The position numbers and the translations under genes were made by a program. Source: Oncomelania hupensis (lineage: Eukaryota > Mollusca > Gastropoda > Littorinimorpha > Pomatiopsidae). Taken from it: 64,000 nucleotides of DNA. The stretch's first letter is position 1; every line of letters begins with the position of its first letter. The stretch covers positions 28,127,110 to 28,191,109 of the forward strand of contig CM072511.1 of the NCBI GenBank assembly GCA_036898135.1, written 5' to 3'. Positions 1,637 to 62,045 of this stretch are shown piece after piece. The notes under the pieces are model-generated. The model saw only the letters and a program-made list of their open reading frames with translations. It did not search any database and had not been told where the DNA came from.

Positions 1637-2219
1637 TAACATGCTTTGCAATAGTTAAAGTATGCACAAAATTAAAAATAATGAATTTTGGTTTAATTAA
1701 TCTTGAGACAAGGCAAACAGTAAGTTTTCAACCAAAAGGTTCAATACAAAGTGACGGACCAACTGACTGACCGACAACTAGACTGTTACTGAAAATAGCC
1801 CATAAGGCATAGCCTGTAAACCAAAACTTTTTTTTTTAAATAAAAAAAATAAAACACGCTTCAGTCATCTTTGAGATATTAAACAAAATGTATTTAGCAA
1901 CAAAACGAGTCCAGAGACCTTGATCTTTGAGGCAGAATAAAATCTGATGGCATGGGAGCTAGACCACTAACCTAGGTAATGTTCCAATGAAGTTTGGTCA
2001 AAATCCGTTTAGTGGTTCTTGAGATATGGCTTCCAACGGACGAACAACAAACCAATCAACCGACATTCGGCTCGTTTGATTACCCCCTCACTATTTCAAA
2101 GTATTTCCATATAAGTCTGGAAATACATAAATAGGAAAAAAAACAGCATTTATAAATGGAAATAGTTTAAACCCTTCAGCAAGCAATTTTTGTTGATTTG
2201 AGCATCCAGTATTATATTA

Positions 2220-13022: not shown

Positions 13023-13070
13023 GATGAACTCTGATGTTAACAATGCTGCAAGCATACCAACATTTGACAT

Positions 13071-23900: not shown

Positions 23901-24741
23901 GCGGAGGAGGCCAAAGCAGAAAGCATCGCCTCACGCAAGAAAGTTTCTGTCTCATCAATGGTCAGGCCATCAGGCATAACAACTGAGGTCAACTGGGAGG
24001 CATATGTGTCCCAGTTTACTTTCCCCCAGTTAATGCGTGCAGAGCGGGGGGCCGACACCGGGCGGCCGTCAAGAGTGATGAGGACGGGCAGGTGATCCGA
24101 GAACCCCGGCTCGGTTGTTACTGCCCACTCGAGTAGTGGCACAATATCTGGGGTGGCGAGGCAGAGGTCAATAGCTGTTCTACTCTGGTTTTTAGCGTCC
24201 GGGATTCTGGTAAAGGTACCATCATTTAGCACTGTCAGGGAGGCCTCAGCTAGGGCCTCACCTACATCTCTGGAGAACGTGGGAAAGTCATCCTCCCACC
24301 GGCCGTCTCGTTTATTAAAATCTCCCACTACCACCCAATCACCTTCCGAGACCACCTGTGACAGCCAGGAGAAGTCGCGACAGCCGGTGGGGTTATAGTA
24401 GTTTAGTATGTGTAACGGGCCGCCGAGGCCATGTTCCTCCAAGGTGACCTCGACTACGGAGGTAAAGCCCCCCCCCCGTCTCCCTCGTCGACGGGGCCCA
24501 GGTCGTTCGCAGCCAACCCCAGACGGATATAGGTTGAAACGTAAACTTTATCGTTTTCACCGGTGGTAAATATTGGCGGGTAGTGAAACCCCTGAATAAC
24601 TGGAAGTTCGGATGGTTTGCAGTTCAGGGACTGCAGGCAAAGAATATGGCTGCGCCCTATTTCTTCAGAAAGAATGGGGAGGGAATTGATAAGGGTTCCC
24701 CGAGAGCGGACATTATATTGATAAATTTGCAAGGTACTCAT
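20984..24741 (-). CDS. LINE ORF2: endonuclease, reverse transcriptase, RNase H (one frameshift)
   Basis: The catalytic polyprotein of the LINE. The first 90 residues (MSTLQIYQYNV onwards) are in one frame up to a run of ten G (24468-24477 on the plus strand). The rest, an 1,152-codon frame to 20984, is in another. One more or two fewer bases would align them. Domains in order: endonuclease with VVGDFN and FSDHLPV; RT with NYRPIALTS, AGFRRGRGISDHL, SMGVPQGSVVAPLLF and the catalytic YADDIALW at about 22740; RNase H with IYTDGS, CELVAVGEAL, FTDSRAAL and SHVGLRGNERADRAA; and a terminal Cys/His cluster (CVCG...HCIFHC). An alternative start at 24810 overlaps the ORF1 stop. Confidence 0.87.
24468..24477 (-). 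other. Ten-G homopolymer at the ORF2 frame break
   Basis: Ten consecutive C on the plus strand. Upstream and downstream parts of ORF2 are in different frames exactly across this run. Homopolymer miscall, real mutation and programmed slippage are all possible. Confidence 0.8.
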
Positions 24742-24799
24742 GATCTGGGTGATCAATAGGAAATAAAGGAAAGAATATTTAGATTGAATGCAATTGTTT

Positions 24800-27085
24800 T
24801 TATAGTGCATTATTTGTTAGATGTTCACAGATGGTTTTTAGTATTGCAAAAAGTGTTGAGAAGATAATACGGGTGGCTGCAAGCTCCGGAGGGAGCGCAC
24901 TCATCCCGGCCAGAATGACACCCTCAAGGTCAGCCAATTGAGAGAGGGGGTTCACTGTTGCAGAGGTGTTTAGAGATGCTGTCGACGGGGAGAGAGTCAC
25001 ACGTATCCCAAGGTCTGATGGCTCGGAGGGGGCAGCCGCCACAACCTTCCGTCGTCCACCAGCTGACACTGAGGAACGTGAGTGAGCTTGGGAGGGACCA
25101 GCTGGCCTATCCCGAGGTACCACCGCGGGCTGACGACCGGAGGGTCGAGTGCTGGAGGCCAGTGGTGCAGGGCCAGCGCCCGCGGAGGGAGAGGTTAATG
25201 TAGGGTATGCATCAAGAGAGGCATCCGGCGGAGCAGAGTCCGAAGGGAGGGTCTTCGCGGAGTCAGCGGGGCGGTCAGGATGTGCATGACGTCCCAAGGC
25301 GCCACGCCTATCTGAGTGTTCCCGCGTGCGCGGGGCCCATGTCATGGTAGAGCCAGTGGCCCGTACTTGGGGAGTGGGGGTCGGAGGAAGGTCAGCAAGA
25401 CCTACACCTGCCCTTGCCTGAGCAACAGCAGTGCTGTGAGGGAGGTAACAAGAGCCCCGCAGGCAATTTGCTCTGCGTCGAATTTCGATTTCTGGGCAGC
25501 CTTCCCAGGCGGATGAGTGCGACCCACTGCAATTAACACACAGTCTGGTCTCTGACGTGCAGTCCTTGGTGAGGTGGTTTTTGCCACAGCGTGCACAGCG
25601 GAAATCTCTTCGTCTGCAGTGTGCCTTGGTGTGACCTAGTAGCTGACATTTTGTGCACCTCAGTACCGGCGCCACAAAGGGGTCGACTCTGAAACGCGTC
25701 TTGCCCAACGTCACCTCTGCGGGAAGTACGCGCAAACCAAATGTGACCTTTATAGCTGCCGAAGGGAGCCCACCGGTGAGAGGTAACCTTACCACGGAAA
25801 GGACCGGTAGGCCCTGTCTACCCAGGTCCTCCTTGACATCAGTCAGAAACCTGCTGTCAGCTTGGACCACCGGTAGGCCCCTGATGACACCGACTGTAGT
25901 AGTCTTAGGTATGTAGGTGGAAACAGGTATGGAGCTGATGTTGGTCATGCGAAACAGTTTACCCTGTTGCTCTTTGGATGAACAGGCTATAAGCCAGTCG
26001 CCGTTAGGCGTTGGACGAATTGAAAGGACCTCACCCACCAGGGAACGAAGAGTGTTAGCTTGTAGTAAGGGGTTTAGACCGGAAAAAGTGGCCGGGCCAC
26101 CGCCCTTGTCATGAAGGATGACCGGGAAGTCCACCGGTTCCACTCTGAGTCTAGATGAGGGAGGCCGAAAAGGCCTTTTGGGTTCGGGTACAGCAGCGCC
26201 TATGCGCGCTGCAGAGGCATAAGAAATTTTGCCTGTCTGTGCAGAGGAGGTTGACCAGGAGGGGGCCACTCCCCCCGGGGCAGTAGAGTTCCGTCCGATC
26301 GGAGAAACAGGGTCTCGGACAGGTGGAGAGCCCAGAATGCCGTCCCGCCGAGAGGCCGGCAAGGATGACGGATCAGCGCCATCACTGGTAGAGCGGGCAG
26401 CTGGGGACGTGGACTGAGGGTCAGTGTTGATACTAGACTGCGACAACGACTCCTGAAATGGAGAGTTTTGTGCAGTTGGGCGCCCAGATTTATTAGAGGC
26501 CATGGAGTTCTCATCTTTACCATCGGTGTTCCGCTTCGCGGAAGAAGGACTGGGAGCATGAGGAAGCCTTTCTGGAGTGTTCTTGTCAGTTGGCGAATCA
26601 ATTTGAATGTTTTCTGGGCTGAGTGACGTGTTTGTATATGTAATGCTTCGCTTGGCGCTCGGTAAGGGAGCAGCCTGAGACGAAGAGCGTTTTCTTGAAG
26701 GAGAGTTGGCATCCTGTGAAAAGGAGCCAGAGGCATAGGAGCCAATGGACCCCGTCGTCTCCCGCCCACCCAGGGCTCCGACAACCGAGGGAGAGAAGGT
26801 GGGCCGAGTACACTGCCCAACCACATCTGAGGGAGTAAATATCTTCTTTTTTTGATCAGCCAATAGTCGAGCTCTCTTGAGTGCCTTTCTGCCACCGGCA
26901 GTCACACTCGGGCATTTGTCATGAGATTTGAGGATGGCACTAAGAACTATACTCGATTTTTTCTTCTTTTGTCCTCTGAGTCGGACAGGAGGAGGCGAGC
27001 ATGTCGCCGGTGAACTAGGGGGGACCTCTGACCAATCGTCGGTGTCCTCCACCTCATCTTCAGTGTCACAATCTGAATTAGACAT
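24800..27085 (-). CDS. LINE ORF1: zinc-knuckle nucleic-acid-binding protein
   Basis: A 761-residue protein with a real ATG at 27085. The N-terminal 300 residues are Ser/Pro-rich and disordered-looking, with basic patches (RGQKKKKS). A folded segment follows, then three zinc knuckles at about residues 475-530: CTKCQLLGHTKAHC (CX2CX4HX4C), CARCGKNHLTKDC (CX2CX3HX4C) and CVNCSGSHSSAWEGC (CX2CX3HX6C). The C-terminus is again Pro/Ser-rich. In I-group LINEs this protein coats the RNA and accompanies it to the target. The stop (TAA, 24802-24800) overlaps an in-context ATG at 24810, so ORF2 may be read by termination-reinitiation. Confidence 0.87.
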   Translation of the reverse strand: MSNSDCDTEDEVEDTDDWSEVPPSSPATCSPPPVRLRGQKKKKSSIVLSAILKSHDKCPSVTAGGRKALKRARLLADQKKKIFTPSDVVGQCTRPTFSPSVVGALGGRETTGSIGSYASGSFSQDANSPSRKRSSSQAAPLPSAKRSITYTNTSLSPENIQIDSPTDKNTPERLPHAPSPSSAKRNTDGKDENSMASNKSGRPTAQNSPFQESLSQSSINTDPQSTSPAARSTSDGADPSSLPASRRDGILGSPPVRDPVSPIGRNSTAPGGVAPSWSTSSAQTGKISYASAARIGAAVPEPKRPFRPPSSRLRVEPVDFPVILHDKGGGPATFSGLNPLLQANTLRSLVGEVLSIRPTPNGDWLIACSSKEQQGKLFRMTNISSIPVSTYIPKTTTVGVIRGLPVVQADSRFLTDVKEDLGRQGLPVLSVVRLPLTGGLPSAAIKVTFGLRVLPAEVTLGKTRFRVDPFVAPVLRCTKCQLLGHTKAHCRRRDFRCARCGKNHLTKDCTSETRLCVNCSGSHSSAWEGCPEIEIRRRANCLRGSCYLPHSTAVAQARAGVGLADLPPTPTPQVRATGSTMTWAPRTREHSDRRGALGRHAHPDRPADSAKTLPSDSAPPDASLDAYPTLTSPSAGAGPAPLASSTRPSGRQPAVVPRDRPAGPSQAHSRSSVSAGGRRKVVAAAPSEPSDLGIRVTLSPSTASLNTSATVNPLSQLADLEGVILAGMSALPPELAATRIIFSTLFAILKTICEHLTNNAL

Positions 27086-27091
27086 GGTTTA

Positions 27092-29530: not shown

Positions 29531-29700
29531 GTGATGAAATAAAAAGTCTTTTGGTCAGAAGAAAATCAAATGAAGAGGGAGCGCAAAGCGCTGCTACAAC
29601 GTCCAGAAGAAAATTAAATAGTATCAGGTCAGCGAAGAAGTGTTAAATTCTGAAAATGGTGGCCGGTGTAGTAAGGCCGCTTAATGTCACGACACATGCA

Positions 29701-29892
29701 GTGGGGCCGGGTAGCTCAGTTGGTAAGAGCGTCTTGCTAGTAACCGGAAGGTCGCTGGTTCGAATCCCGGATTGGTCAACGTGTGATCATATTATTTTCC
29801 CCTTTACCAACAACTGGCCCGCTGGTGTCAGTTTAAATCGGTCCAGTAGTCACCTATATGCGGAAGTGTCGTGTGACTATAATCTACAAACA
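29701..29892 (+). mobile_element. tRNA-derived SINE, copy 1
   Basis: The head GGGCCGGGTAGCTCAGTTGG and GGTTCGAATCCC match the A and B boxes of a tRNA promoter. The anticodon position would read AGT (Thr), but stems are imperfect, so it is not a working tRNA. The body ends GTCGTGTGACTATAATCTAC. Perfect 12-bp target duplications ACGACACATGCA flank it at 29689-29700 and 29893-29904. Confidence 0.87.
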
Positions 29893-30021
29893 ACGACACA
29901 TGCAAGGTTTTTATACGATAGCTCTCCCCTTGGTCTCATGCTAATTGGCTTGGTCTGTTCGGGTTCAGGATTCCGATCGGTAAGCCAACATATATCCATC
30001 CGCTATAACTATATACTATAG

Positions 30022-30219
30022 AGGGGCCGGGTAGCTCAGTTGGTAAGAGCGTCTTGCTAGTAACCGAAAGGTCGCTGGTTCGAATCCCGGATTGGTCAAC
30101 GTGTGATCATATTATTTTCCCCTTTACCAACAACTGGCCCGCTGGTGTCAGTATAAATCGGTCCAGTAGTCACCTATATGCGAAAGTGTCGTGTGACTAT
30201 AATCTACATACATACAAAC
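30022..30219 (+). mobile_element. tRNA-derived SINE, copy 2
   Basis: Nearly identical to copy 1 (for example CCGAAAGG for CCGGAAGG). Its own 11-bp target duplications ATATACTATAG lie at 30011-30021 and 30220-30230, so it inserted independently about 130 bp away. The two are therefore not a tandem duplication. Confidence 0.87.
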
Positions 30220-30788
30220 ATATACTATAGGCGTAAGTCTGAAGATGTGAGACGAGTGTTTGATTTGTCAACCCAACTAGGTACCTCCTCCATGTACGGA
30301 GGCACATGCACAATTGCGATATTTTGTGCTGTACTACGCACCGCAGCACTACCGTTAAATTAAAATTAATGCTGTCTGACTGACCGACTCGGAAGCGTTC
30401 TTCTGGTAGCTCTTTTTTTTCTTTAACCCGTTTGTGGTCTTCTTGCTCTGCTTTTTCGTGGTCTTCTTGCTATTTCTTTGCTGTTGTTGTTTTTGTTATT
30501 GTCGTCATCGTTTGTTGTTGTTGTTATTGTTGTTGTTGTTGTCATTGACGTTTATGTCTTTGGGAGTACTATACGTTTTAATAACAAACAGCGTAGTCTA
30601 ATCAATAGCTTTTGCAATCTATCCAGCCTATTTTATTTAAATCTGTGGTTTGACGCCATTGACGCAAAGGCTTTGGGCGAGATATCCATATCATTTATGT
30701 TATACACAAACTTCTTGTCTCCATATCCAGCCTGGTTCCTCATCTAACAAATGTGACGAGTTTTGCTGCTCATATCTGGTTAACAAGT

Positions 30789-36904: not shown

Positions 36905-37085
36905 AGTTTATACTGCTCTCCTACCAGATGAAGGCTACTATCAAAAACCGAATGCAGTCACATCCTTCGGTTGAGAGTATAAACCGAGGTCTAGTTTAAT
37001 GCGCGCACGCATTGTAACGCACGGCAGACTTTACATCCTAGACGGGTGAGTGCCAGCTACACAAAAACACCCGTACCCCTGTAAG
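36905..37085 (+). mobile_element. SINE fragment bordering the minisatellite
   Basis: TATAAACCGAGGTCTAGT near 36979 and CTAGACGGGTGAGTGCC near 37038 match the body of the SINE at 47.9-48.3 kb. The tRNA-like head and the 3' end are missing. The minisatellite begins where the SINE 3' part should be. Confidence 0.65.
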
Positions 37086-37117
37086 CACTAGGTCCACCCC
37101 CTCCCATTCCCACCCCT

Positions 37118-39487
37118 CCCTCCTCTACTATTCCTCCCCTGTCTACCATTCCTCCCCTGTCTACCATTCCTCCCCTCTTTACCATTCCTCTCCTGTCTAC
37201 CATTCCTCCCCTGTCTACCATTCCTCTCCTCTCTACCATTCCTCCCTTGTCTACCATTCCTCCCCTCTTTACCATTCCTCTCCTGTCTACCATTCCTCCC
37301 CTGTCTACCATTCCTCTCCTCTCTACCATTCCTCTCCTCTCTACCATTCCTCCCTTGTCTACCATTCCTCCCCTGTCTACCATTCCTCTCATCTCTACCA
37401 TTCCTCCCCTGTCTACCATTCCTCCCCTGTCTACCATTCCTCTCCTCTCTACCATTCCTCTCCTCTCTACCATTCCTCTCCTCTCTACCATTCCTCCCCT
37501 GTCTACCATTCCTCCCCTCTCTACCATTCCTCCCCTGTCTACCATTCCTCTCCTCTCTACCATTCCTCCCCTGTCTACCATTCCTCCCCTGCCTACCATT
37601 CCTCTTCTCTCTACCATTCTTCCCCTGTCTACCATTCCTCCCCTGTCTACCATTCCTCCCCTGTCTACCATTCCTCCCCTGTCTACCATTCCTCCCCTGT
37701 CTACCATTCCTCTCCTCTCTACCATTCCTCCCCTCTCTACCATTCCTCTCTTCTCTACCATTCCTCTCCTGTCTACCATTCCTCCCCTGTCTACCATTCC
37801 TCCCCTGTCTACCATTCCTCTCCTCTCTACCATTTCTCTCCTCTCTACCATTCCTATCCTCTCTACCATTCCTCCCCTGTCTACCATTCCTCCCCTGTCT
37901 ACCATTCCTCCCCTGTCTACCATTCCTCCCCTGTCTACCATTCCTCTCCTCTCTACCATTCCTCTCCTCTCTACCATTCCTCCCCTCTCTACCATTCCTC
38001 CCCTGTCTACCATTCCTCTCCTCTCTACCATTCCTCCCCTCTCTACCATTCCTCTCTTCTGTACCATTCCTCTCCTGTCCACCATTCCTCTCCTGTCTAC
38101 CATTCCTCTCCTCTCTACCATTCCTTCCCTCTCTACCAATCGCCTGTCTACCAATCCTCCCCTGTCTACCAATCGCCTGTCTACCAATCCTCCCCTGTCT
38201 ACCAATCGCCTGTCTACCAATCCTCCCCTGTCTACCAATCGCCTGTCTACCAATCCTCCCCTGTCTACCAATCCTCCCTTGTCTACCAATTCTCCAGCTC
38301 CCCTGTCTACCAATCGCCTGTCTACCAATCCTCCCCTGTCTACCAATCGCCTGTCTACCAATCCTCCCCTGTCTACCAATCGCCTGTCTACCAATCCTCC
38401 CCTGTCTACCAATCGCCTGTCTACCAATCCTCCCCTGTCTACCAATCGCCTGTCTACCAATCCTCCCCTGTCTACCAATCGCCTGTCTACCAATCCTCCC
38501 CTGTCTACCAATCGCCTGTCTACCAATCCTCCCCTGTCTACCAATCGCCTGTCTACCAATCCTCCCCTGTCTACCAATCGCCTGTCTACCAATCCTCCCC
38601 TGTCTACCAATCGCCTGTCTACCAATCCTCCCCTGTCTACCAATCGCCTGTCTACCAATCCTCCCCTGTCTACCAATCGCCTGTCTACCAATCCTCCCCT
38701 GTCTACCAATCGCCTGTCTACCAATCCTCCCCTGTCTACCAATCGCCTGTCTACCAATCCTCCCCTGTCTACCAATCGCCTGTCTACCAATCCTCCCCTG
38801 TCTACCAATCGCCTGTCTACCAATCCTCCCCTGTCTACCAATCGCCTGTCTACCAATCCTCCCCTGTCTACCAATCGCCTGTCTACCAATCCTCCCCTGT
38901 CTACCAATCGCCTGTCTACCAATCCTCCCCTGTCTACCAATCGCCTGTCTACCAATCCTCCCCTGTCTACCAATCGCCTGTCTACCAATCCTCCCCTGTC
39001 TACCAATCGCCTGTCTACCAATCCTCCCCTGTCTACCAATCGCCTGTCTACCAATCCTCCCCTGTCTACCAATCGCCTGTCTACCAATCCTCCCCTGTCT
39101 ACCAATCGCCTGTCTACCAATCCTCCCCTGTCTACCAATCGCCTGTCTACCAATCCTCCCCTGTCTACCAATCGCCTGTCTACCAATCCTCCCCTGTCTA
39201 CCAATCGCCTGTCTACCAATCCTCCCCTGTCTACCAATCGCCTGTCTACCAATCCCCTGTCTACCAATCGCCTGTCTACCAATCCTCCCCTGTCTACCAA
39301 TCGCCTGTCTACCAATCCTCCCGTCTACCAATCGCCTGTCTACCAATCCTCCCCTGTCTACCAATCCTCCCTTGTCTACCAATCCTCCCCTGTCTACCAA
39401 TCGCCTGTCTACCAATCCTCCCCTGTCTACCAATCGTCTGTCTACCAATCCTCCCCTGTCTACCAATCGCCTGTCTACCAATCGCCG
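37118..39487 (+). repeat. 2.4-kb minisatellite: 18-bp units, then 33-bp compound units
   Basis: From 37118 to about 38140 the unit is CTACCATTCCTCCCCTGT (18 bp, about 56 copies, many C/T and G/C variants). From about 38145 to 39487 it alternates CTACCAATCGCCTGT (15 bp) and CTACCAATCCTCCCCTGT (18 bp), giving a 33-bp unit of about 40 nearly identical copies. All unit lengths are multiples of three and lack stops in several frames, so frames of 750-850 codons are open on both strands. These have no non-repeat coding context and I do not call them genes. Confidence 0.95.
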
Positions 39488-39509
39488 GTCGCCCAGGATT
39501 GTGCTCAGT

Positions 39510-39640
39510 TGTAAGGCGGCAAATGGATGTCTCGGTGGCTTGAGGTTAGATCCTGTTTTGGCCAGCGCCTTGAGCAGTTCCTGATCTGGAAATGCGCTAT
39601 ATAAGAACGATAAAATAAAATAAATTATTAAATAAATATT
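39510..39640 (+). mobile_element. SINE/LINE 3' terminus with (AAAT)n tail
   Basis: GAGGTTAGATCCTGTTTTGG, CCAGCGCCTTGAG and AATGCGCTATATAAGAACG followed by an ATAAAATAAA tail. Same terminus as 19813-19893 on the other strand. It closes the minisatellite on the right. Confidence 0.65.
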
Positions 39641-39778
39641 CACCAAGTCTAAACTAAAGCCATATAATCACGGCATCCTTGTTATGTCTATTATGACAAA
39701 GAAATTATGCCGTTATGACTTATAAAATACAAAGCATTCTCGCTTTCTGAATGGGCTAGAAGTTTATACAGAAAATCT

Positions 39779-40280: not shown

Positions 40281-40569
40281 TTTTTGTAAAAACGACATTC
40301 TGATGACTGTTGTGAAAAAAACAGGGATTATTTTGACACACTTTTATTTTCGTGACATTATTTTGACATTTTTCAAATTTTTGAACCTATCCCTAACCCT
40401 AACCCTAACCCCTAACCCAAACCCTAACCCTTAACCTAACCCTAGGCCTAAAACAGCTCTAACTCAGCGGGGAACTATTTTGACGTCAAAATAGGGCGCC
40501 CTTCCAAAAAAGTCAAAAGAAACCATGTGGAGTTCCATGAGTGTGTCACTGTAACGTCGTTTCTACATG

Positions 40570-40650
<81 letters not shown>

Positions 40651-40949
40651 ATTTTTGTAAAAACGACATTCTGATGACTGTTGTGAAAAAAAAACAGGGA
40701 TTATTTTGACACACTTTTCATTTTCGTGACATTATTTTGACATTTTCAAATTTTTGAACCTAACCCTAACCCTAACCCTAACCCCTAACCCAAACCCTAA
40801 CCCTAACCCTTAACCTAACCCTAGGCCTAAACAGCTCTAACTCAGCGGGGAACTATTTTGACGTCAAAATAGGGCGCCCTTCCAAAAAAGTCAAAAGAAA
40901 CCATGTGGAGTTCCATGAGTGTGTCACTGTAACGTCGTTTCTACATGCC

Positions 40950-41169: not shown

Positions 41170-44100
41170 GGTTTAAACATAATTTTATTATTCCCAAAAC
41201 AAGTAGACAAAGCATGGAAAACATAAAGGGCACACAAAAGCAAAGCTTAAATAAGTGCTACCCTTTGACAATTGAAAACAATGAAATGTCTGGCGAACAG
41301 GAACAAATTTATACAAAGCAATTAAAAAAGAAAAAAAAACAGAAGCACATAAATTAATCTTTTCAACAATGAAAAAGTAACAAACATGTAACTATAGTAT
41401 AACAAACAAGAAATGCAATAACGTCGAACTAGAAAAATAAAAGTAATAAAGAAATAAATGAATGAACTAACTAACGAGAAAAAGATACTACTAGAGAGAG
41501 GGAAACAAATGGGGAATGGTTTAGCTGGTATCAAGGTTACGAATCAGAGGTGATTTTTGTATCATTGGGCTATTTTCTAAACGAAGCGGTCACTAGATGT
41601 GAGGAATGTGTGAACTTTTGAAAAGATTTTGGCGTTTTCTTGTGGGGAGAGACGGTCGCTGCCAAACAATAAGGTGTTGATGTTTCGAAAAGTTTGGTCT
41701 AATTGGTTAATTGTCTGCGTACGTACAATGCCGAATATAGGGCAAAAAAGGATAAAATGTTCAGATGTTTCTGCAGGATGCCCACACTGACAGACTGGGT
41801 CTTCTAACAAGTGACGGCGGAACATGTCATAATTAAGGTTGCTTACGCCAAGTCGGAGTCGGGCATGTAAAACCTGCTGCTGTCGTGTCCCATGGTAATA
41901 GTACAATGGAACAAGTGGATCATCTTTGGAAAGGTGTCTTTTTAATAAGCTAATGGATGGGCTTTCTTGAATTTCCTCGGGGAGATCATTCCACAATACT
42001 GTGGTTGAAGGAAGAAAAGAGTTTTTGTAAAGTTCAGTTTTGTATGGGGGTACTCTACGTTCTAGAGGTCTTCTGCGGTGATATGGATTAACTGCTGATA
42101 CTAGTTGTGGGACCAAGTTGGACAAGTACTCAGGACAGCACTCGTTTATCATCTTATGAAGAGTAAGTAGCTTATGTCTTTATTTTCTCTCCTTCAATGT
42201 GTATTGTCCAGACTCTCTGTACAATAACTCATGGCTGGTCCCCTTCACCGCCCCAACAATAATTCTAATACCTTCTAAATGGAGTTTTTCCAATAAACCA
42301 GCTTGAGTGTCTGTACAATTATCCCAGATTACATCGCCGTAGTCAAAGTGAGGTAGGACAAAGGATTTGTACATATTTTCTAAGGCTTTTCTGCACAGCT
42401 TATATTTATACGTTCTTAAACATGATAGGAGGATGGTTATTTTCTTTATGACGTTACTTATATGGATATCCCATCTGCAATTGTTTTGCAGTGTTAGTCC
42501 TAAGTGTTTATGGTATTCGTTGTCAGATAAAACTGCGTTTCCGAAGCTTAATGGGTTGTTAGGTAATGGGTCACGTTTGAAAGTTAATAGTTCTGTTTTG
42601 TCTTCATTAAACCTTACTTTCCAGGTGTTAGCCCAGTCGTTTATCTTTTGAAGATCAGAATTCAAAATTTCTGCTCGTATGTCTGGGTTGTTTAGGGTTA
42701 ATGACATGCTAGTATCGTCTGCAAAAAGTTTTATAACTGATTCAATGTTATCCACAATATCATTAATATAGATTAGGAACAATAGAGGGCCTAAAACTGA
42801 TCCTTGACGTACGCCTGACGGAACGGTTTTATAGTCTGATTTGCTACCTTTAATGACAACAGCTTGTTTTCGTTGGCCTAGATAATTAGCAAACAATTGA
42901 AGAAGTTTACCTCTAATACCTATGGCCTCTAGCTTAGCTAGTAATCCTTTGTGCCATACTCTGTCGAAGGCCTTGGAGATGTCAAAGAAAATTGACTGGT
43001 TAGTGATTCCACTGTTATGGGCTAAAGTTAGTTCATTATATATGCAAAGTAGTTGGTTGATTGTTGAGTCCCCGGTGTGACGAACGGGCGATTCAGCCCT
43101 GAGACTGGCTGCGCACAGTCATCTCGCCCCCGCACGCCGGCTTAATCCGTCTAAGCCCCGCCCCTCGGGGGATCGCTCTAAAAGCTCTCACACACCAACT
43201 CTCGGGGTCAGACGCATGCCTTCCGCCTTCGAAGACCCATCAGCCTGCCTCGGACACGTCCCATCACCCGGTGTCCATTGAGCCTCGGCAGTACTCTTGG
43301 GATTCGACCCGTTCTTAGTCAAGACGGGCTCCTATCAGGGCGAGTATACCGGCCCTGCCAGCTGTAAGACGCCAGACCCGCTGCGGGCGACCCTGACAAC
43401 CCAGGGCGTCAATGTGAAGCGTACCTCCCAAGTTTCGCAACTCAGCCAGCCAGCCACGTAGGCTGAAACGCAACACTGTATCGCCACTGGAGATTGCACA
43501 ACCCAGCCATTATCTAAGAAGGTGACCTACTGCCCCGCATTGGGCCCCAAGCTGACCACGAGAACTCTTTGATCCGCCGACCATCCAGAATCCTGGACCA
43601 ACCACCGCCCTACGCAATACGAAGCTAAGTTACTATCCCACGAGCACCACAATTCGAAGACACTCTGGCTAAGCCACCCAGAACAATCCAGATATCCTCC
43701 TGCTCAGTGATGAGATCAGTCCTCAATCGCCCTAGCACTCCCAAAGCCGCCCACCCAGAATATCTCCAAGATACTCCGAACTATTATTGACCATATTCAG
43801 TGACTCATCCTTAGATTATCCAACTCAGACGACCTACTTCCAATTAATAAAATTGACTAGTTAAATACTGTATCAACTGGACTCTCCCTTGTTTGAATTT
43901 CTTATTAGTCTAGTCAACCTCCTTCTCGTCTGGCCTTTGACTGTCTCTCATTCTGTAGTAACCCCCAGCCTTAGTCCATTGAATGTCATCGCAACGTTGG
44001 CCTATACAAGGGAGGCAACACAGTGCGAGGGATTAAGTGCTAATCCTCATCCCCCCAACCCCTTTCTTTGTGACACCCGGGAATAAAACCAGACTGTGAT

Positions 44101-45075
44101 GGTGTTATAAGATTATTGTCTTTTAGGAATGAGAAGACATGGGTATGGGCACAGCGCTCAAAGACTTTACCAACACAACTTAAGAGAGATATTGGGCGAT
44201 AGTTGGTACAAATATCGGCCGGACCTTTTTTGTGTATTGGCGTTACATGGGCAATTTTCCAAATATCTGGAAACAATCCTTCTGATAGACAGCGGTTGAA
44301 GAGTTGACTTAAAGGATGTGAGATTATATCAGCAGATATCAGTAATAGTTTGTTATGGATTTTATCGGGGCCTACAGCTTTACTTTTGTCCAGGTTTATT
44401 ATCACTTTGGCTACCTCTGCTGGGGTTATTAGAATTTCAGTCAGTTCGTGATCTAGGTGAGGAAGTTCAGGAGGGTCGTCATCGGGTGTTTCTAATACTG
44501 ATTGCTGTATAAAGTGGTCATTGAATGCGGTGGCCTTTTCTTCATTTGTAACGACCGTTTTCCCATTAGTAGATATTGGCGGTATATCGTTGGAGATTCC
44601 TTTTTTGTTTATAAATGCTTTTACTTTAACAAGTTTCCATCATTCCTTAGTTCCAAATTTGGTGGGGTCTGATGCTTTTTCATCTAGTTCCTTGTGATAT
44701 TCTAATTTCCTATTTCTGATCATTACCGTGACTTTATTTCTATACTGTCGATACTTTTTCCAGTCATTCTCTACATTTGTTATCTTTGCATGTTTAAATA
44801 ATGTATATCTGCATTTTAAGGCGTGACGAATTTCTATATTTAACCAAGCGGCATCTCTAGTGCGTACAGTAACTGTTTTTATGGGCATACATTTACACGC
44901 GGCATCGAAGTAAGCTTGAGTAAAGTTTTCTGCTGATTGGTTTAAGTTTTCCGCCGTTATTAATGTAGGCCAATCTATTTGTAAAAGCAGATTACAGAAT
45001 TGATCATGGTCTAAACGGTCATAGTTGTATATTATCCTTTTGTATGAGTAATTCCTATTGACAGGGTTTATAATG
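41170..45075 (-). mobile_element. 5'-truncated, dead LINE (CR1/jockey-type RT) split by a solo LTR
   Basis: The minus strand reads, from 45075: a pre-RT region, RT fingers (NYRPISLLSCVGKVFE, SQSGFIPG), then the solo LTR (44075-43076). It resumes with DSTINQL, SGVRQGSVLGPLLFLIYIND and the catalytic LFADDTS at about 42710, then thumb and a Cys/His C-terminus (CQCGHPAETSEHFILFC). Two in-frame stops break it: a TGA in place of Trp near 44645 and a TAA at 42180-42182. No endonuclease is present, so the copy is 5'-truncated. RT without RNase H fits CR1/jockey-like groups. The 3' limit is approximate. Confidence 0.82.
43076..44075 (+). mobile_element. 1,000-bp solo LTR inserted in a LINE, 5-bp target duplication
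   Basis: Starts TGTGACGAAC and ends TTTGTGACA (TG...CA). Flanked by CCCGG at 43071-43075 and 44076-44080. Removing it rejoins the LINE frame exactly (GFIPG then DSTINQ). It contains an AATAAA near 43846 on the plus strand and a TCTAAAAGC TATA-like site near 43177, so the plus orientation is likely. No internal coding sequence, hence a solo LTR left by LTR-LTR recombination. Its ends resemble but differ from those of the complete element at 54.7 kb. Confidence 0.87.
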
Positions 45076-54479: not shown

Positions 54480-54683
54480 TCCTAACTGTTAAACATTGGA
54501 GCGCATGGTTGTGTGTGGCAGAGTGGGGAAAATGACCGCTAAGCCATGACCGCAAAGCAACGACACCTAAACAATGCCGATTGAGATTATTTTGAACCGC
54601 CTAGAGGGTCATACCGATAATATGAACCTGGTGCTCAGGGAGTACAGGGCCCTCTACTCTATCGGATGAGAGTGTAAACCGTG
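54480..54683 (+). mobile_element. Left half of a SINE-like repeat split by the LTR element
   Basis: Ends CGGATGAGAGTGTAAACCGTG at the LTR border. The right half (61968-62045) continues CCGTGGTTTAGTCCATG, then CCAGACGGATGAGAATGCC. Together they match the body of the SINE at 47.9-48.3 kb (GATTATAAACCGAGG, CTAGACGGGTGAGTGCC). The shared CCGTG is the target duplication. Confidence 0.65.
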
Positions 54684-55766
54684 TGTCACGTGGGGTTTAT
54701 GGGCTCTGCACAATGGAATTATGGACCCTCACGTTTATTCGGTGGGAACTGCTAGTACGTTACCCTATGAATTACTTTAATAAATTTATTTGTTTAGCTC
54801 GTTCTGTGTTAAGGTTGGGGTACAGACATAGATAGAAAAATGGTAAAAGAATACTGTCACACTAGCTTTCACACGGCTATGAATCATATGTAGTCCAGCC
54901 TTTTGATAACAGTTAAAATCACACATTTATTTCTTCTACTCTATACAAGGTTCTCTAAGTACTAATCTAACTTAAAAAGTCTCTTTCAATGCTAATAGTT
55001 CGATCGCTGATAGTCTATGCAGCTGTTCTATCTTCATCGGGCACTCGCTAGTATATCTCATGTAGATTTGGACTACTGTGGTCCGTCTTAGAGTTTCTGG
55101 ATAGTTGGACTACTGTGGTCCTGTTCTGATCAGTTTAAGTGCACTGGGGAGAACACACTTAACTGGCGGGTGGTGCGGTCGAAGTCCTTCTGTGAGGTAG
55201 CTTCTGGTCCACCTGTGTCGTTGTGTAGTTGGGTTCCCTTGCCACGCTGTGGGGTCTGACAGGGTATTTTTCAAGGTAGCTCTGTCCGACTTGTGCGGTA
55301 GAGTCTCCTCAACCAACTGGTCGTTTCTGTGGAGTGGGGTGCACAGGATAGCTCGGGATAGCTCGGGATAGCTCGCCTGCCCGTCTGTCTGACAAGTTCA
55401 GGCCCGTAGTGACTTGATAGAATTCTAATATTCTAAGTCCTGCTTCCTGGTCTAAGTGTGTAGAGATTTCTCTGCCAGCTTTCTAGCTGTTAACACTTCG
55501 GTGTATTACTCCCAACTGACCAAAACTGTGTGTAGGTTCTCACACAGTCAAACTGGCTCCAACCACTTTGCCTAAGCTCTCCCATTGGTTCCAACGGTCC
55601 GATTCAAAACTCAAGTGCTGACGTCACTGCGCTGTGTGTGTGGCTCAGGCTCGCAGTGTGCTGTAATTTAATTGCTACAGTGTACTATACTAACTCTCTA
55701 CTGTTACAAAGGCTACACAAGGCTAAATAGTCGATAGGCAGAGTTTAAACTAGCCAATTCGTGACA
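54684..55766 (-). repeat. 3' LTR of the GMR1-type element (1,083 bp)
   Basis: Appears identical to the other LTR by eye. It contains three copies of GATAGCTCG at about 55345-55375. The 68-codon frame within it is present in both LTRs and has no recognisable domain. Confidence 0.95.
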
Positions 55767-55777
55767 GGCTCCCTCAA
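55767..55777 (-). promoter_or_regulatory. Probable polypurine tract
   Basis: The minus strand reads TTGAGGGAGCC directly before the 3' LTR. Short, but in the expected place for plus-strand priming. Confidence 0.55.
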
Positions 55778-55933
55778 CTGAAAAAAGGCGATGACTACTG
55801 GATTCGACCTTTTTCTACTACAGTGCCTAGTTTAACACTGCTCTATCCTAGGGTCCTCTTTACAAACTAAGTAAGTTGCTCTACCTGAGCTGCAATGCTG
55901 TGCCAGGTAGCTATGGACACTAGTGACAGGGTA

Positions 55934-58900
55934 TTACTGGGCGGGGACGAATTCTGGTGCTGTGGCCCTTAGTTGTGTTGGGTGGGCGACAGCTGCTGTG
56001 TCCTCCACGAGATGGCGACTGAGGTAGTCGGCTCCGTGGTTTTCTTTGCCGGGGATGTACTCGATCTGGAATGAGTATGCCTGAAGGGTGAGTGCCCATC
56101 TCATCAGGCGAGAGTTCAAAGACTTGGAGGCTGCCAGGAACGATAGTGGTTGGTGGTCCACCTGAACTGTGAAGTGGGTCCCATACAGGTAGAGTTGAAA
56201 CTTCTGTATGGCCCAGACTAGTCCAAGGCATTCTTTCTCCGACGTGGCGTAGTGGGTCTCGGCGGGTCTCAATTTTCTGCTGGCGTAAGCGACAGGGAAT
56301 AGCGTCTCGGCATTCTTGGGGTCGCGCTGTAGCAGTACTGCTCCGAGGCCTAAGTCGCTTGCGTCGGTGCGAAGAACGAATGGCTGAGTTAAATCGGGTA
56401 GGTGGAGTACTGGCGCCGATGTCATTCTGTCCTTGAGTGTTTGGAATGCTGTCTCGCATTCGGCTGTCCATACAACTTTGTCCGGGGCGATTTTCCGGGT
56501 TCCATTTGTCAGTGGTACGGCGATGCTGTTGTAGTTGGGGATGAACTTCTGGTAGAAGCCGCATAGTCCTAGAAATGACTGCACTTCCTTCTTTGTCTTG
56601 GGCCTAGGAGCGTCGAGTAGGCGTTTCACTGTCTTCTCTACCGGTCGCAGGCTTCCTTGACTGATGGTGTGTCCCAGAAATTCTAGCTCGGTGAATCCAA
56701 TCTGACATTTGGTGGGTCTTGCCGTCAATCCCGTGTCTCTGAGGCGGGCGAGTAGTTGTTGTAGGAGCGTGACATGTTCCTCCCACGTAGGTGTAGCGAT
56801 GAGGATGTCGTCCATAAACGAATGTAGGTGCTCGCTGCTCAGGGGTGCCAGGAGTTTTCGCATCATGGCGCTGAAGATGCTGGGTGCGTTGTGGAGTCCG
56901 AATGGAAGCACGTTGAATTCGAAGTGTCCTTCCATAGTGCTGAAAGCTAGGTACTTTCGGACTTGTGGTTGTACTGGTATCTGATAGTATCCTTTGCTGA
57001 GGTCGATACGTGAGAAGTACTTCGCTCGCTGTAGCTTGGCAAATAGGTCTGTCTGGTCCGGGAGTGGCTCTGGCTGGAACTGCGTTACCGCATTCAGGAG
57101 TCTGAAGTCGATGCACAGTCGATGCTCTCCGTTGGGTTTTCGCAACAATACCGTGCCTGCGCTGTAGGGTGAGGTAGACTCTGAGATGATTCCGGCTGCC
57201 AGTAAGGTGTCTATCTCTTCCTTGATGGCTCGCTGCTGCGACAGTGGCATCGGGTAGAGCTTCTGGCGGACGGGTGTTGGGTCGGTCACCGTTAAGGTTA
57301 CTTCGACGAGGTCTGTCCTCCCTGGTCGGTCTGTTAGCACAGTCTGATGTTGTCGAATGACCTGTAGTACTTGCTGTCGCTGTTTGGCGGCTAGGTCTCT
57401 GTTGAGTATCACGTCTTTGTAGGTTTCTTTGGAGTGCAGGGGATACTCTACTGCATTGGTCTCCATGCTTTCTCCTTCTTCCGCGATGGCGATGGCTAAC
57501 AAGTTGTGAGTGCTGGGGGTCGCTGGTCGGTCCGTATACTTCTTGAGGAGATTAATGTGGTGGTATCGGGCTCTCCCGTTCACCTCTACTTGGTAGACTG
57601 TCTTGGATTTCTTGGCAGTCACCCGGTACGGTCCTCTCCAAGCGATGTCCAGCTTGTTGGTTCCACTTGGAAGTAAGAGTAGCACTTGATCGCCGACTTG
57701 CAGTTCTCTGTCCTTCGCGTGGCGGTTGTAGTACTTCGCCTGACGGGCTCTTGCCTTCTTCAGTGCTTCACCAGCTTTCTTCCACGTTGCTTTGAGGGTT
57801 TCCTGCAGGTCTGCGACGTACTTGGTGGCACCTCTTGGTGTGTCGTCTATCTTGGCCTCCGTCCAACTTCTGCGTAGGGCTTCTAGCGGTCCTGCTAGAG
57901 GTCTGCCGAATAGCAATGTTGACGGGGTGTAGCCTGTGGCTGCATGGGGTGTTTCTCGGTATGCGAACAGTGCCGCATTCACGTAGGTGTCCCACGCTTC
58001 TGGATTGTCGTCGGCGACTTTCCTGAGGATGGTGAGAAGGGTTCCATTCAGTCTTTCTACTTGTCCGTTGCTGGCTGGGTGGTATGGTGGTGTGCGAATG
58101 TGATGAACTTGTATCAACTCGAACACGTCTTGCATCAGGCGGCCGGTGAACTGAGATCCGTTGTCCGTTCTAATGCTGTCCGGGAATCCGACTCTGGTAA
58201 AGATGGCGATGAGTGCATCTGCAATCTTCTTGGTGTCTATCGCTGGCAACGGGACTGCTTCGCACCACATCGTACATGCGTCGACGAGTGTGAGTAGAAA
58301 TCTGTTCCTCTTCTTGGTCATGGGCAGTGGTCCCACTATGTCTACTGAGACTTGCTGGAATGGCACGCCGACTACTACCGATGGTCCTAAGGTAACTGGT
58401 ACGGTGTGATGTCGCGGGGAATATCGTTGACATTGGTGGCAAGATTTCACGTAGCGCTTGACCTCCTCCGTGATTCCTGGCCAATAGTAGTGTGCGCTGA
58501 TTCTCTGCACTGTGGCTCCAATTCCCATGTGTCCGCTGAGTGGCATGCTGTGGCCTAATTCTAGTACTTGGGCTCGAAGGGTGGCTGGTAGTACTAGTTG
58601 GGTGTGATCTCCATCTCCTTGTCGATGTAGAACTCCCTCTTCCATGTAGAAGTCTCCCTTGTGCGGGGGTGTGTGCGCCTTGGGTAGCTTCTGGAAGCAC
58701 TTCGCTATCGAGGTGTCTTCTTTCTGTGCTGTTTTGATCTCTTCGAGTCCTGGATTCGGAGCGAACTCGGGCTGGGGTGGTTGGGTTTTAGCTTGGGCCC
58801 TGGTTTGCACTGCAGCTATCTCTACAGTTTTAGGGGGCGTGCCTAAGAACACATACCTACAACCTAGCACTAGATCATACAGGGGTTTCTGTAAAACAGC

Positions 58901-60517
58901 TGCTTGGATTCGTCCTGTGACGTACCTACTCTCTACTTCGATCCAAGCTATTGGGCAAGTAGTCGTCGGTTTCGTCAAGTCTGCTCCTTGTAAGTCGACT
59001 GTCTTGTCTGTCAAGTCCGCGCGCGATACAAGAGACTCGCTAACTATCGCGTCGTATGATAGACCTGTGTCATACAGACAGTTCGCTTCTTTTCCGTTGA
59101 CCTTGACCGTGTCTGTCACCGATGGGTGATCTCCGATCGTGTGTGGCTTGTTACCGCTACTTTGAGTTAGAACTCTGTGCGCTGGCCGGCTTTCGCGCTC
59201 TTCCCTACGTTGTGCGGCCAACTTGAAACATTCTGCGGTGGAGTGATTGTTTCTGTTGCAGAACGAACAATACCGTCTCTGTTCTGCGGGACCTCTTTTC
59301 CCGAATTCCGTGTTGGGTCCTTTATTCTGCCCAGGTCTGGGGTTATTCGGCTTGTTCGCGGTGCGCTCCTCCCGGTTAGGGCTTCGTTTCTGTGCCTCTT
59401 TCCCGTTAGGCTTTAGGTCTCGCCTGAAGCTCTTGGCTTCTCCGTGTGCGGCCACGTACCTATCTGCGACCTTGACCAGATCTTCCAGTCTTTCCGCGCC
59501 CTGTTCTACTGAGAATGTTCTCAGCTCGGGGGTCATGGTTTCCCGTAGCTGTTCCCATACTAACAGTTCTGTCAGTCCATCATACGTCTTAGCCGTGGCT
59601 GACTGGCTAATCCACTTATCCAGCGTTGTGGACAACCGATCCGCGAACTGCGCATAGCTCTCTCCTTTCACTCTCCGATTGGTGCGGAATTTTTGCCGAT
59701 AGCATTCTCCTGTTAGTTCGAATCCCGTTAGGAGTGCCTCTTTTACTTTGTGATAGTCAGTCACTCTGTCAGTCGGTAGCTTACTGTAGATGTCATAAGC
59801 CTTTCCTCTAAGCCCGTGACTAAGCTTGAAAGACCAATGAGTGGGATCTAGTTTGTACTCTGTTGCTAGACGCTCAAACCTAGTCAGATAGAGATCTAGA
59901 CCTTCTTCTCTCTCATTGAATGTCCCCAGTGGGAATGACATTCCTTGTACAGGGTTGGATGCTACCTCTAGCTGATCTGAGTGGGTAGGGGTTGAGGAAG
60001 AACTTGAAGCTCCTGATCCCAATCTTCTTAGCTCTAACTCATGCTGTCTTTCTTTTTCCTTTTCTTCCCTCTCTTTTTCTTTTTCTGCCCTTTCTTTTTC
60101 TTTTTCTGCCCGCTCATACTCCCATCTCCTACTTTCTGCTTCTCTCTCTGCTGCTAATGCTGCCTTCTTCTGTTCTCCTTCTAATTCTAGTTTCTTCTGT
60201 TCTCTTGCTGCTTCTAATTCTAGTTTCTTTTGCTCTGCTTCTAACTTCTTCTGCTCTGCTTCTAGTTCTAATTTCTTTTGCTCTGCTTCTAACTTCTTCT
60301 GCTCTGCTTCTAATGCTAGTTTCTTCTGCTCTGCTTCTAGTTCTAATTTTCTCTGTTCTGCTTCGAGTTTCTTCTGTTCTCTCTCTGCTGCTCTCTCTGC
60401 CTTAGCCTCCTGTTTCTCTACCTCTGCATTTATATACGCAATTAGGTCTCCCCCTGCTAAGTGTAAAGCTTCGCCTAGTTCCTTGAAGCGCAATCTCAAG
60501 GCCACTGGGTCCGACAT
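55934..60517 (-). CDS. Gag-Pol polyprotein, GMR1 order (Gag, PR, IN, RT, RH)
   Basis: A single 1,527-residue frame; the first ATG is at 60517 (MSDPVALRLRF). Residues 35-165 are a long Glu/Lys/Ala/Leu helix built of EQKKLE repeats, probably a coiled coil. Residues about 190-375 are a capsid-like domain whose C-terminal half (YRQKFR, ELLVWEQL, MTPELRTF) resembles SCAN domains. The zinc knuckle CSFCNRNNHSTAEC is at about 415. Protease YDTG is at about 480. Integrase: HX4H...CX2C at about 660-700, then D of SVDIVGPL, D of TDNGSQF and E of NGQVERLNG at about 725, 780 and 820, and a C-terminal barrel. RT: LCIDFRLLN and FMDDILIA at about 1135 and 1235. RNase H: RTDASD, KECLGLVW, VDHQPL at 1385-1450. 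No frameshift separates Gag from Pol, so both would be made as one precursor. Confidence 0.95.
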   Translation of the reverse strand: MSDPVALRLRFKELGEALHLAGGDLIAYINAEVEKQEAKAERAAEREQKKLEAEQRKLELEAEQKKLALEAEQKKLEAEQKKLELEAEQKKLEAEQKKLELEAAREQKKLELEGEQKKAALAAEREAESRRWEYERAEKEKERAEKEKEREEKEKERQHELELRRLGSGASSSSSTPTHSDQLEVASNPVQGMSFPLGTFNEREEGLDLYLTRFERLATEYKLDPTHWSFKLSHGLRGKAYDIYSKLPTDRVTDYHKVKEALLTGFELTGECYRQKFRTNRRVKGESYAQFADRLSTTLDKWISQSATAKTYDGLTELLVWEQLRETMTPELRTFSVEQGAERLEDLVKVADRYVAAHGEAKSFRRDLKPNGKEAQKRSPNREERTANKPNNPRPGQNKGPNTEFGKRGPAEQRRYCSFCNRNNHSTAECFKLAAQRREERESRPAHRVLTQSSGNKPHTIGDHPSVTDTVKVNGKEANCLYDTGLSYDAIVSESLVSRADLTDKTVDLQGADLTKPTTTCPIAWIEVESRYVTGRIQAAVLQKPLYDLVLGCRYVFLGTPPKTVEIAAVQTRAQAKTQPPQPEFAPNPGLEEIKTAQKEDTSIAKCFQKLPKAHTPPHKGDFYMEEGVLHRQGDGDHTQLVLPATLRAQVLELGHSMPLSGHMGIGATVQRISAHYYWPGITEEVKRYVKSCHQCQRYSPRHHTVPVTLGPSVVVGVPFQQVSVDIVGPLPMTKKRNRFLLTLVDACTMWCEAVPLPAIDTKKIADALIAIFTRVGFPDSIRTDNGSQFTGRLMQDVFELIQVHHIRTPPYHPASNGQVERLNGTLLTILRKVADDNPEAWDTYVNAALFAYRETPHAATGYTPSTLLFGRPLAGPLEALRRSWTEAKIDDTPRGATKYVADLQETLKATWKKAGEALKKARARQAKYYNRHAKDRELQVGDQVLLLLPSGTNKLDIAWRGPYRVTAKKSKTVYQVEVNGRARYHHINLLKKYTDRPATPSTHNLLAIAIAEEGESMETNAVEYPLHSKETYKDVILNRDLAAKQRQQVLQVIRQHQTVLTDRPGRTDLVEVTLTVTDPTPVRQKLYPMPLSQQRAIKEEIDTLLAAGIISESTSPYSAGTVLLRKPNGEHRLCIDFRLLNAVTQFQPEPLPDQTDLFAKLQRAKYFSRIDLSKGYYQIPVQPQVRKYLAFSTMEGHFEFNVLPFGLHNAPSIFSAMMRKLLAPLSSEHLHSFMDDILIATPTWEEHVTLLQQLLARLRDTGLTARPTKCQIGFTELEFLGHTISQGSLRPVEKTVKRLLDAPRPKTKKEVQSFLGLCGFYQKFIPNYNSIAVPLTNGTRKIAPDKVVWTAECETAFQTLKDRMTSAPVLHLPDLTQPFVLRTDASDLGLGAVLLQRDPKNAETLFPVAYASRKLRPAETHYATSEKECLGLVWAIQKFQLYLYGTHFTVQVDHQPLSFLAASKSLNSRLMRWALTLQAYSFQIEYIPGKENHGADYLSRHLVEDTAAVAHPTQLRATAPEFVPAQ

Positions 60518-60860
60518 TGCCAAACGTGTCTATGAACAACCTCTGAATCACGTGGAATACCAAAACACTAGCAATATTGCAAGTCAATAAAAACAATGCA
60601 AAGACCATACAATTCGTAATCAATAATAGAATAAAACAAGAGTCAAATGGCATACAACAGTTACTTAAGCAAAACCTGCAAAAGAACAATGCAACATACA
60701 GACACAAAAATATTTGAAGCAAAAAAGTTTTTAACTAAAGAATAGTGCACCCAACTGATCAGTATTATACCCTTACACTATTCTAAGTTATTCTACTTCT
60801 ACTGTTATCTAATTTTATTGTACTTAGGTCCGGTTATACCCAATTCCTATTATACACAGA

Positions 60861-60877
60861 TCCTGGCAGGCTCGCCA
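60861..60877 (-). promoter_or_regulatory. Primer-binding site, tRNA-Arg type
   Basis: The plus strand reads TCCTGGCAGGCTCGCCA, ending in CCA seven bases before the LTR at 60885. It matches the 3' end of animal tRNA-Arg(ACG), with sequence recalled from fly and human genes, so its complement would bind that tRNA. The seven-base gap to the LTR is longer than the usual zero to three. Confidence 0.7.
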
Positions 60878-60884
60878 ATTAAAG

Positions 60885-61967
60885 TGTCACGTGGGGTTTA
60901 TGGGCTCTGCACAATGGAATTATGGACCCTCACGTTTATTCGGTGGGAACTGCTAGTACGTTACCCTATGAATTACTTTAATAAATTTATTTGTTTAGCT
61001 CGTTCTGTGTTAAGGTTGGGGTACAGACATAGATAGAAAAATGGTAAAAGAATACTGTCACACTAGCTTTCACACGGCTATGAATCATATGTAGTCCAGC
61101 CTTTTGATAACAGTTAAAATCACACATTTATTTCTTCTACTCTATACAAGGTTCTCTAAGTACTAATCTAACTTAAAAAGTCTCTTTCAATGCTAATAGT
61201 TCGATCGCTGATAGTCTATGCAGCTGTTCTATCTTCATCGGGCACTCGCTAGTATATCTCATGTAGATTTGGACTACTGTGGTCCGTCTTAGAGTTTCTG
61301 GATAGTTGGACTACTGTGGTCCTGTTCTGATCAGTTTAAGTGCACTGGGGAGAACACACTTAACTGGCGGGTGGTGCGGTCGAAGTCCTTCTGTGAGGTA
61401 GCTTCTGGTCCACCTGTGTCGTTGTGTAGTTGGGTTCCCTTGCCACGCTGTGGGGTCTGACAGGGTATTTTTCAAGGTAGCTCTGTCCGACTTGTGCGGT
61501 AGAGTCTCCTCAACCAACTGGTCGTTTCTGTGGAGTGGGGTGCACAGGATAGCTCGGGATAGCTCGGGATAGCTCGCCTGCCCGTCTGTCTGACAAGTTC
61601 AGGCCCGTAGTGACTTGATAGAATTCTAATATTCTAAGTCCTGCTTCCTGGTCTAAGTGTGTAGAGATTTCTCTGCCAGCTTTCTAGCTGTTAACACTTC
61701 GGTGTATTACTCCCAACTGACCAAAACTGTGTGTAGGTTCTCACACAGTCAAACTGGCTCCAACCACTTTGCCTAAGCTCTCCCATTGGTTCCAACGGTC
61801 CGATTCAAAACTCAAGTGCTGACGTCACTGCGCTGTGTGTGTGGCTCAGGCTCGCAGTGTGCTGTAATTTAATTGCTACAGTGTACTATACTAACTCTCT
61901 ACTGTTACAAAGGCTACACAAGGCTAAATAGTCGATAGGCAGAGTTTAAACTAGCCAATTCGTGACA
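60885..61967 (-). repeat. 5' LTR of the GMR1-type element (1,083 bp)
   Basis: Same length and, by eye, same sequence as the 3' LTR. Followed by the target-site copy CCGTG at 61968-61972. Confidence 0.95.
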
Positions 61968-62045
61968 CCGTGGTTTAGTCCATGAACGCACGGACTTTAA
62001 AGATACTGACACTCATGGTCCCAGACGGATGAGAATGCCAGAAGC
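61968..62045 (+). mobile_element. Right half of the SINE-like repeat split by the LTR element
   Basis: Resumes the SINE body interrupted at 54683: GACTTTAAAGATACTGACAC and CCAGACGGATGAGAATGCC. The SINE 3' end is decayed. Confidence 0.65.

Follow-up and report, generated by a model that had tools for sequence, protein, structure and literature searches.

A complete Gmr1-type Ty3/gypsy retrotransposon of a gastropod and its amplified relatives without reverse transcriptase

Structure of the element and content of the window

The window (the whole 64,000-nucleotide stretch of Oncomelania hupensis DNA analysed) contains a complete, very recently inserted Gmr1-type Ty3/gypsy long terminal repeat (LTR) retrotransposon of a gastropod, which lies on the minus strand and extends from 54684 to 61967. 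The 5′ LTR (60885–61967, minus strand) and the 3′ LTR (54684–55766, minus strand) are both 1,083 bp long, and pairwise comparison showed zero mismatches from end to end. Each LTR begins with TGTCACG and ends with CGTGACA, and comparison of the flanks identified the same 5-bp sequence, CCGTG, on either side of the element (54679–54683 and 61968–61972), so that both the TG...CA termini and the target-site duplication of an LTR retrotransposon are present. Gag and pol are encoded in a single open reading frame (ORF; 55934–60517, minus strand) of 1,527 residues plus a stop codon, counted from the first ATG and free of internal stops; the mechanical start of the open frame is a TTG at 60523, two codons upstream of that ATG. 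Reading of the sequence also suggested a candidate primer-binding site of 18 nucleotides that starts 7 nucleotides past the 5′ LTR (60860–60877, minus strand) and a weak candidate polypurine tract (GAGGGAGCC; 55767–55775, minus strand) that adjoins the 3′ LTR.

The initial annotation had confined the element to 55934–60517. The ORF is as it described, but the LTRs, the target-site duplication and a SCAN-type domain in gag had been missed. Its description of the element as young is borne out, since the LTRs are identical over 1,083 bp and the ORF is intact; the element is probably autonomous. A near-identical twin is present at C1:28200185–28207461 of the genome searched (G000; 1.45 Gb in 428 contigs), 18.4 kb from the window element. 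The two differ at 6 of 2,001 internal bases, and their flanks are identical over 485 and 439 bp. Flank identity of this extent marks the twin, as judged from sequence, as a segmental or assembly duplication rather than a second insertion.

Several other features are found in the window. A LINE-type element (20984–27088, minus strand) contains a 762-residue open frame followed by a 1,187-residue frame with endonuclease, reverse transcriptase (RT) and RNase H, and additional RVT_1 fragments at 1051–1767 (plus strand), 42183–43118 (minus strand) and 44043–44639 (minus strand) probably derive from non-LTR elements. An RGS12-like exon with a PDZ domain (11976–13130, minus strand) belongs to a host gene; its closest match is a protein of Pomacea canaliculata (47% identity over 81% of the length). 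The earlier assignment of the element to a mollusc agrees with this exon and with a second family in G000, whose integrase is 94% identical to a Littorina saxatilis protein. Long tandem arrays occupy 37002–39700 (18- and 33-bp units; open in several frames on both strands) and the region from 53223 (8-bp units). A 202-bp unit with a tRNA-Thr-like sequence, perhaps a SINE, is repeated at 96% identity (29700–29901 and 30020–30221), and short CCCTAA-rich stretches resembling telomere repeats occur at 40358–40835.

Domain order and relationships

The polyprotein is ordered as gag (SCAN-type capsid and zinc knuckle), protease, integrase, RT and RNase H. The domains were located by a Pfam search of the ORF, run in three pieces, and by motif reading; all lie on the minus strand. 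The SCAN-type capsid domain (59438–59707) was matched at 1e-9, with 38.5 bits against a cut-off of 27. The zinc knuckle (CX2CX4HX4C; 59228–59269) and the aspartic protease motif LYDTGLS (59057–59077) were identified by motif rather than by profile. These are followed by the HHCC zinc-binding domain of integrase (58412–58588; PF17921) and its DDE catalytic core (58076–58363), with matches to Integrase_H2C2 (3e-20) and rve (2.7e-13), and downstream of both by RT (56663–57142; RVT_1, 1.9e-33; FMDDILIA at 56795–56818) and RNase H (56075–56470; RT_RNaseH families; RT_RNaseH, 2.8e-37). The ORF ends just 26 residues past the GADYLSR motif of RNase H. Profiles and motifs thus agree with the earlier reading of zinc knuckle, protease, integrase, RT and RNase H in one uninterrupted frame with nothing after RNase H, and the profile search that it had proposed as a check places the integrase domains ahead of RVT_1 and RT_RNaseH. 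An integrase-first order supported by these scores is far beyond chance.

The best match in the Protein Data Bank, for RT and for integrase alike, is Ty3 (7q5b_A). The RT matches residues 601–1021 and the integrase residues 1054–1448 of that chain, an order the reverse of that in the window. No copia-type RT family was matched in the window ORF at an E-value of 0.1. Membership of Ty1/copia was rejected on this result and on the match to RVT_1.

A search with the integrase-RT-RNase H piece against 5.8 billion proteins scored 7,988 candidates, of which 1,504 matched. In all of the best 120 of these 1,504 matches, integrase lies upstream of RT; within the same 120, the window capsid region is matched by 99 and RNase H by 118, and the hosts include gastropods, bivalves, sea urchins, starfish, sea cucumbers, ticks and shrimp. 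Mollusc relatives of the window element are numerous in the protein database. No distant relatives were found in the scan of viral_contigs. Within G000, no standard-order elements were found among 30 loci ranked by RT_RNaseH_2 score; where the window integrase was matched at these loci, the match was always upstream and never downstream.

Trees were computed for 45 integrase and 38 RT sequences, with relatives from sea urchin, starfish, scallop and tick as Gmr1-type representatives and Ty3, on a long branch, as the only standard-order sequence and outgroup. The window element clusters with P0004–P0011 and P0013, which include Biomphalaria, in both trees, with support of 100/100 for integrase and of 100/99 for RT, whose bootstrap had not settled. 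Neither of the two outcomes that the initial annotation had named as contradicting its Ty3/gypsy assignment, an RT of Ty1/copia type or an RT and integrase from different lineages, was therefore observed. Some exchange of integrase and RT within the group is nonetheless likely from the sequence comparisons, since identities in the two domains are only moderately correlated over 34 relatives (Spearman 0.54) and P0015 changes position from one tree to the other. P0171 (Littorina) and one family of G000 (family D, below) have WDDL in the RT palm motif, as compared with MDDI in the window.

Relatives that lack RT

Internal deletions have removed RT repeatedly from Gmr1-type families in G000, with gag, protease and integrase kept. 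The family of the window element (family A) was surveyed with its LTR, which gave at least 41 matches in G000 (40 scored of 6,346 candidates), 89–95% identical when the LTRs of the window element and its twin and one 56-bp piece are left out. Seventeen LTR pairs or arrays were grouped, three of which fall short by about 0.93–0.95 kb. These three (L052–L054, on contigs C1, C2 and C13) carry an identical 929-bp deletion relative to the window, where the corresponding zone between two AGAAG repeats (56546–57479, minus strand) is intact. As 929 bp is out of frame, RNase H is also lost in the RT-less form of this family. The RT-less junction was counted by pattern at 1,260 places genome-wide and the intact upstream flank, which is no proof of an intact RT, at 2,356 (reversed-pattern control 0 in both cases). 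Another copy (L051) is missing about 0.33 kb of gag. Evenly spaced copies at C1:19813317–19849007 (about 7.13 kb apart), C1:81622579–81639626 (about 5.67 kb) and C16:3320297–3333625 (about 6.13 kb) are probably tandem elements with shared LTRs; the second of these arrays bears the RT-less junction.

Three further families were recognized. Among the 30 loci ranked by RT_RNaseH_2 score, 25 contain RT; in the other five (family B) RT is missing between integrase and RNase H, and 7-nucleotide direct repeats (CAAGAAG) mark the deletion ends. Families C and D were found among 20 SCAN loci picked for ORFs of about 1,160–1,300 residues from at least 150 SCAN loci, a choice that gives no estimate of frequency; none of the 20 has an intact RT. 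Eight belong to family C, which keeps integrase and RNase H (the deletion in L062 differs), and 12 to family D, which keeps integrase and a short RT remnant. In families B and C, loss of RT preserves the reading frame. Comparison with an RT-bearing copy was possible for the downstream deletion end alone in family C and for neither end in family D. Family C is small, with 19 occurrences of its junction (reversed-pattern control 0). The family D junction occurs 3,925 times genome-wide by pattern count and the family D RT palm motif 2,775 times (control 0 for each), a ratio that is rough given the different pattern type and mismatch limit. RT-bearing siblings of family D gave at least 150 matches and are alike.

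One family D copy (L078, contig C17) is bounded by 99.7% identical LTRs (751 and 752 bp) and a target-site duplication (AAACC); its open frame of 1,187 residues encodes a SCAN-type capsid, a protease region and an integrase, but of RT only a short remnant. This copy, which has no RT itself, is a recent insertion.

Substitution patterns differ between the parts of the RT-less copies. For the 12 family D copies picked by ORF length, pN/pS is lowest in the integrase core (0.03), intermediate in the tail and linker (0.20) and highest in the remnant (0.90). A second set of 20 family D copies on C1 was chosen by the exact junction alone, which favours less diverged copies. Sixteen of them are open through integrase and remnant (counting L080 despite a 3-nucleotide deletion), and the others contain a stop (L083) or frame-changing insertions (L087, L089 and L095). 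Over all 20, pN/pS is 0.05 (0.03–0.07) in the integrase core, 0.23 (0.15–0.36) in the tail and linker, and 0.69 (0.43–1.34) in the remnant. In family C, seven of the eight copies (L062 left out) gave 0.13 (0.03–0.33) for integrase and 0.11 (0.02–0.29) for RNase H; the similarity of the two values suggests that RNase H is kept without RT, at a low level of divergence. Synonymous divergence in family D is higher in integrase (0.11) than in the remnant (0.075), as recombination with RT-bearing siblings would give, and the selection seen on the family D integrase may thus be partly that of the siblings.

RT-less forms are also represented in other species. Fourteen of 226 listed homologues, a pooled set enriched for such forms by the use of an RT-less query for part of it, lack all or part of RT. 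Eleven of these keep integrase and RNase H (including proteins of Littorina, Haliotis and Saccostrea) and three do not (Littorina and Babylonia). One deletion is common to four Littorina proteins, and breakpoints vary between species and relative to family D. Some of these database entries may result from gene prediction that passed over RT; DNA was read in G000 only. On the integrase tree, the 11 RT-less sequences among 45 imply nine changes, whose direction is not fixed, and their scatter makes the contrast between RT-bearing and RT-less forms repeatable across species.

Proposed mechanism and comparison with known systems

In the model that we favour, the window element would produce its polyprotein and rely on its own RT for copying and its own integrase for insertion, the latter leaving a 5-bp target-site duplication. 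Because integrase precedes RT, loss of RT can leave gag, protease and integrase in frame. Internal deletion has removed RT in several families, including that of the window element, and the RT-less forms have amplified; the deletions most likely arose when reverse transcription switched template from one short repeat to another. Gag from these copies is presumed to co-assemble with the gag-pol of RT-bearing siblings, whose RT would copy the RT-less RNA in trans; insertion would use the RT-less copy's own integrase, which selection would keep working. Taken as a whole, a young Gmr1-type element with integrase-bearing, RT-less kin that are copied in trans by sibling RT and whose integrase is under selection is considered a probable description of the system.

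The strongest competitor, which is appreciably less probable and still deserves weight, is that RT-less copies are passive by-products, i.e. recurrent deletions that are copied in trans and whose integrase is conserved only through import from siblings by template switching. The abundance and likeness of RT-bearing family D siblings, the resemblance of the junctions in families A and B to template switches, and the excess of synonymous divergence in the family D integrase over that in the remnant are all consistent with it. However, one single deletion with its remnant is found in 12 of 12 family D copies and again in 20 of 20 chosen by junction, and the remnant is itself diverged (pS 0.075, pN 0.052), which argues that the RT-less lineage is not continually remade. 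The family D junction also outnumbers the RT motif, though the patterns differ. Integrase-first elements could also be stable two-part systems, in which RT-less copies are a selected gag-protease-integrase component and RT-bearing copies supply the RT. This is unlikely; if true, a single-ORF element without a gag/pol frameshift could set its gag-to-RT ratio by copy number.

Excision of RT by RNA splicing, followed by reverse transcription of the spliced RNA, would explain why a single domain is cleanly missing, with the frame kept in families B and C. It is very improbable overall and was rejected for families A and B, in which the deletions end in direct repeats (5 nucleotides in A, 7 in B) and, for A, no listed placement starts with GT. 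Least credible of all is that recombination, or a rearrangement during assembly, produced the window element from a standard-order one: standard order is the rule among Ty3/gypsy elements in the available text of PMC6238403, and the twin with identical flanks could be an assembly duplication, but the order recurs in all of the best 120 matches, from many animals, and RT and integrase fall in the same clade, which already refutes this source of the order.

LTR retrotransposons are usually classified, and often detected, by their RT. RT-less families with thousands of copies and an integrase under selection would therefore be overlooked or deemed dead. Such kin also make it testable whether an integrase-first order renders RT a dispensable, shareable part. 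Word searches of open papers, in the text accessible there, found no description of amplified RT-less LTR elements that bear integrase.

The known Gmr1 group, Ty3/gypsy elements with integrase upstream of RT (PMC6238403 and PMC8220671, as far as available), gains a new gastropod representative in the window element. According to the available parts of the sources, the group had already been reported beyond deuterostomes, in an annelid (PMC8220671), its clade is carried by several phyla (PMC8556966), the SCAN domain originated from the gag of a Gmr1-like element (PMC3424704), and more than 50% of the Gmr elements in frogs are reported to have SCAN (PMC4131045). For Gmr1, the accessible text of PMC8220671, PMC4131045 and PMC3424704 cites Goodwin and Poulter 2002 and Emerson and Thomas 2011. 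In the part available of a 2018 mollusc survey, six known gypsy clades, without Gmr1, are given in addition to 16 new ones (PMC6238403). With the order, its spread across animal phyla and the SCAN link all published, the window element alone is ordinary. The initial annotation had expected it to be useful for tracing how the order arose, but, as a single member deep in a large known group, it does not by itself show this.

The window element shares with the Gmr1 group (cod, tunicate, frog and annelid) integrase before RT, RT and integrase of Ty3/gypsy type, and the SCAN-type gag of many members; it differs in its gastropod host and in its RT-less amplified kin. It has RT and integrase of the same families as yeast Ty3, in which integrase is downstream of RT. 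The likeness to Ty1/copia is restricted to domain order, whereas the window RT matches RVT_1 and the integrase matches the gypsy-type H2C2 family. TR-GAG and TRIM are non-autonomous LTR elements that hold gag only or no genes. The RT-less kin described here resemble them in relying on another element's enzymes, but keep gag, protease and integrase; families B and C also retain RNase H.
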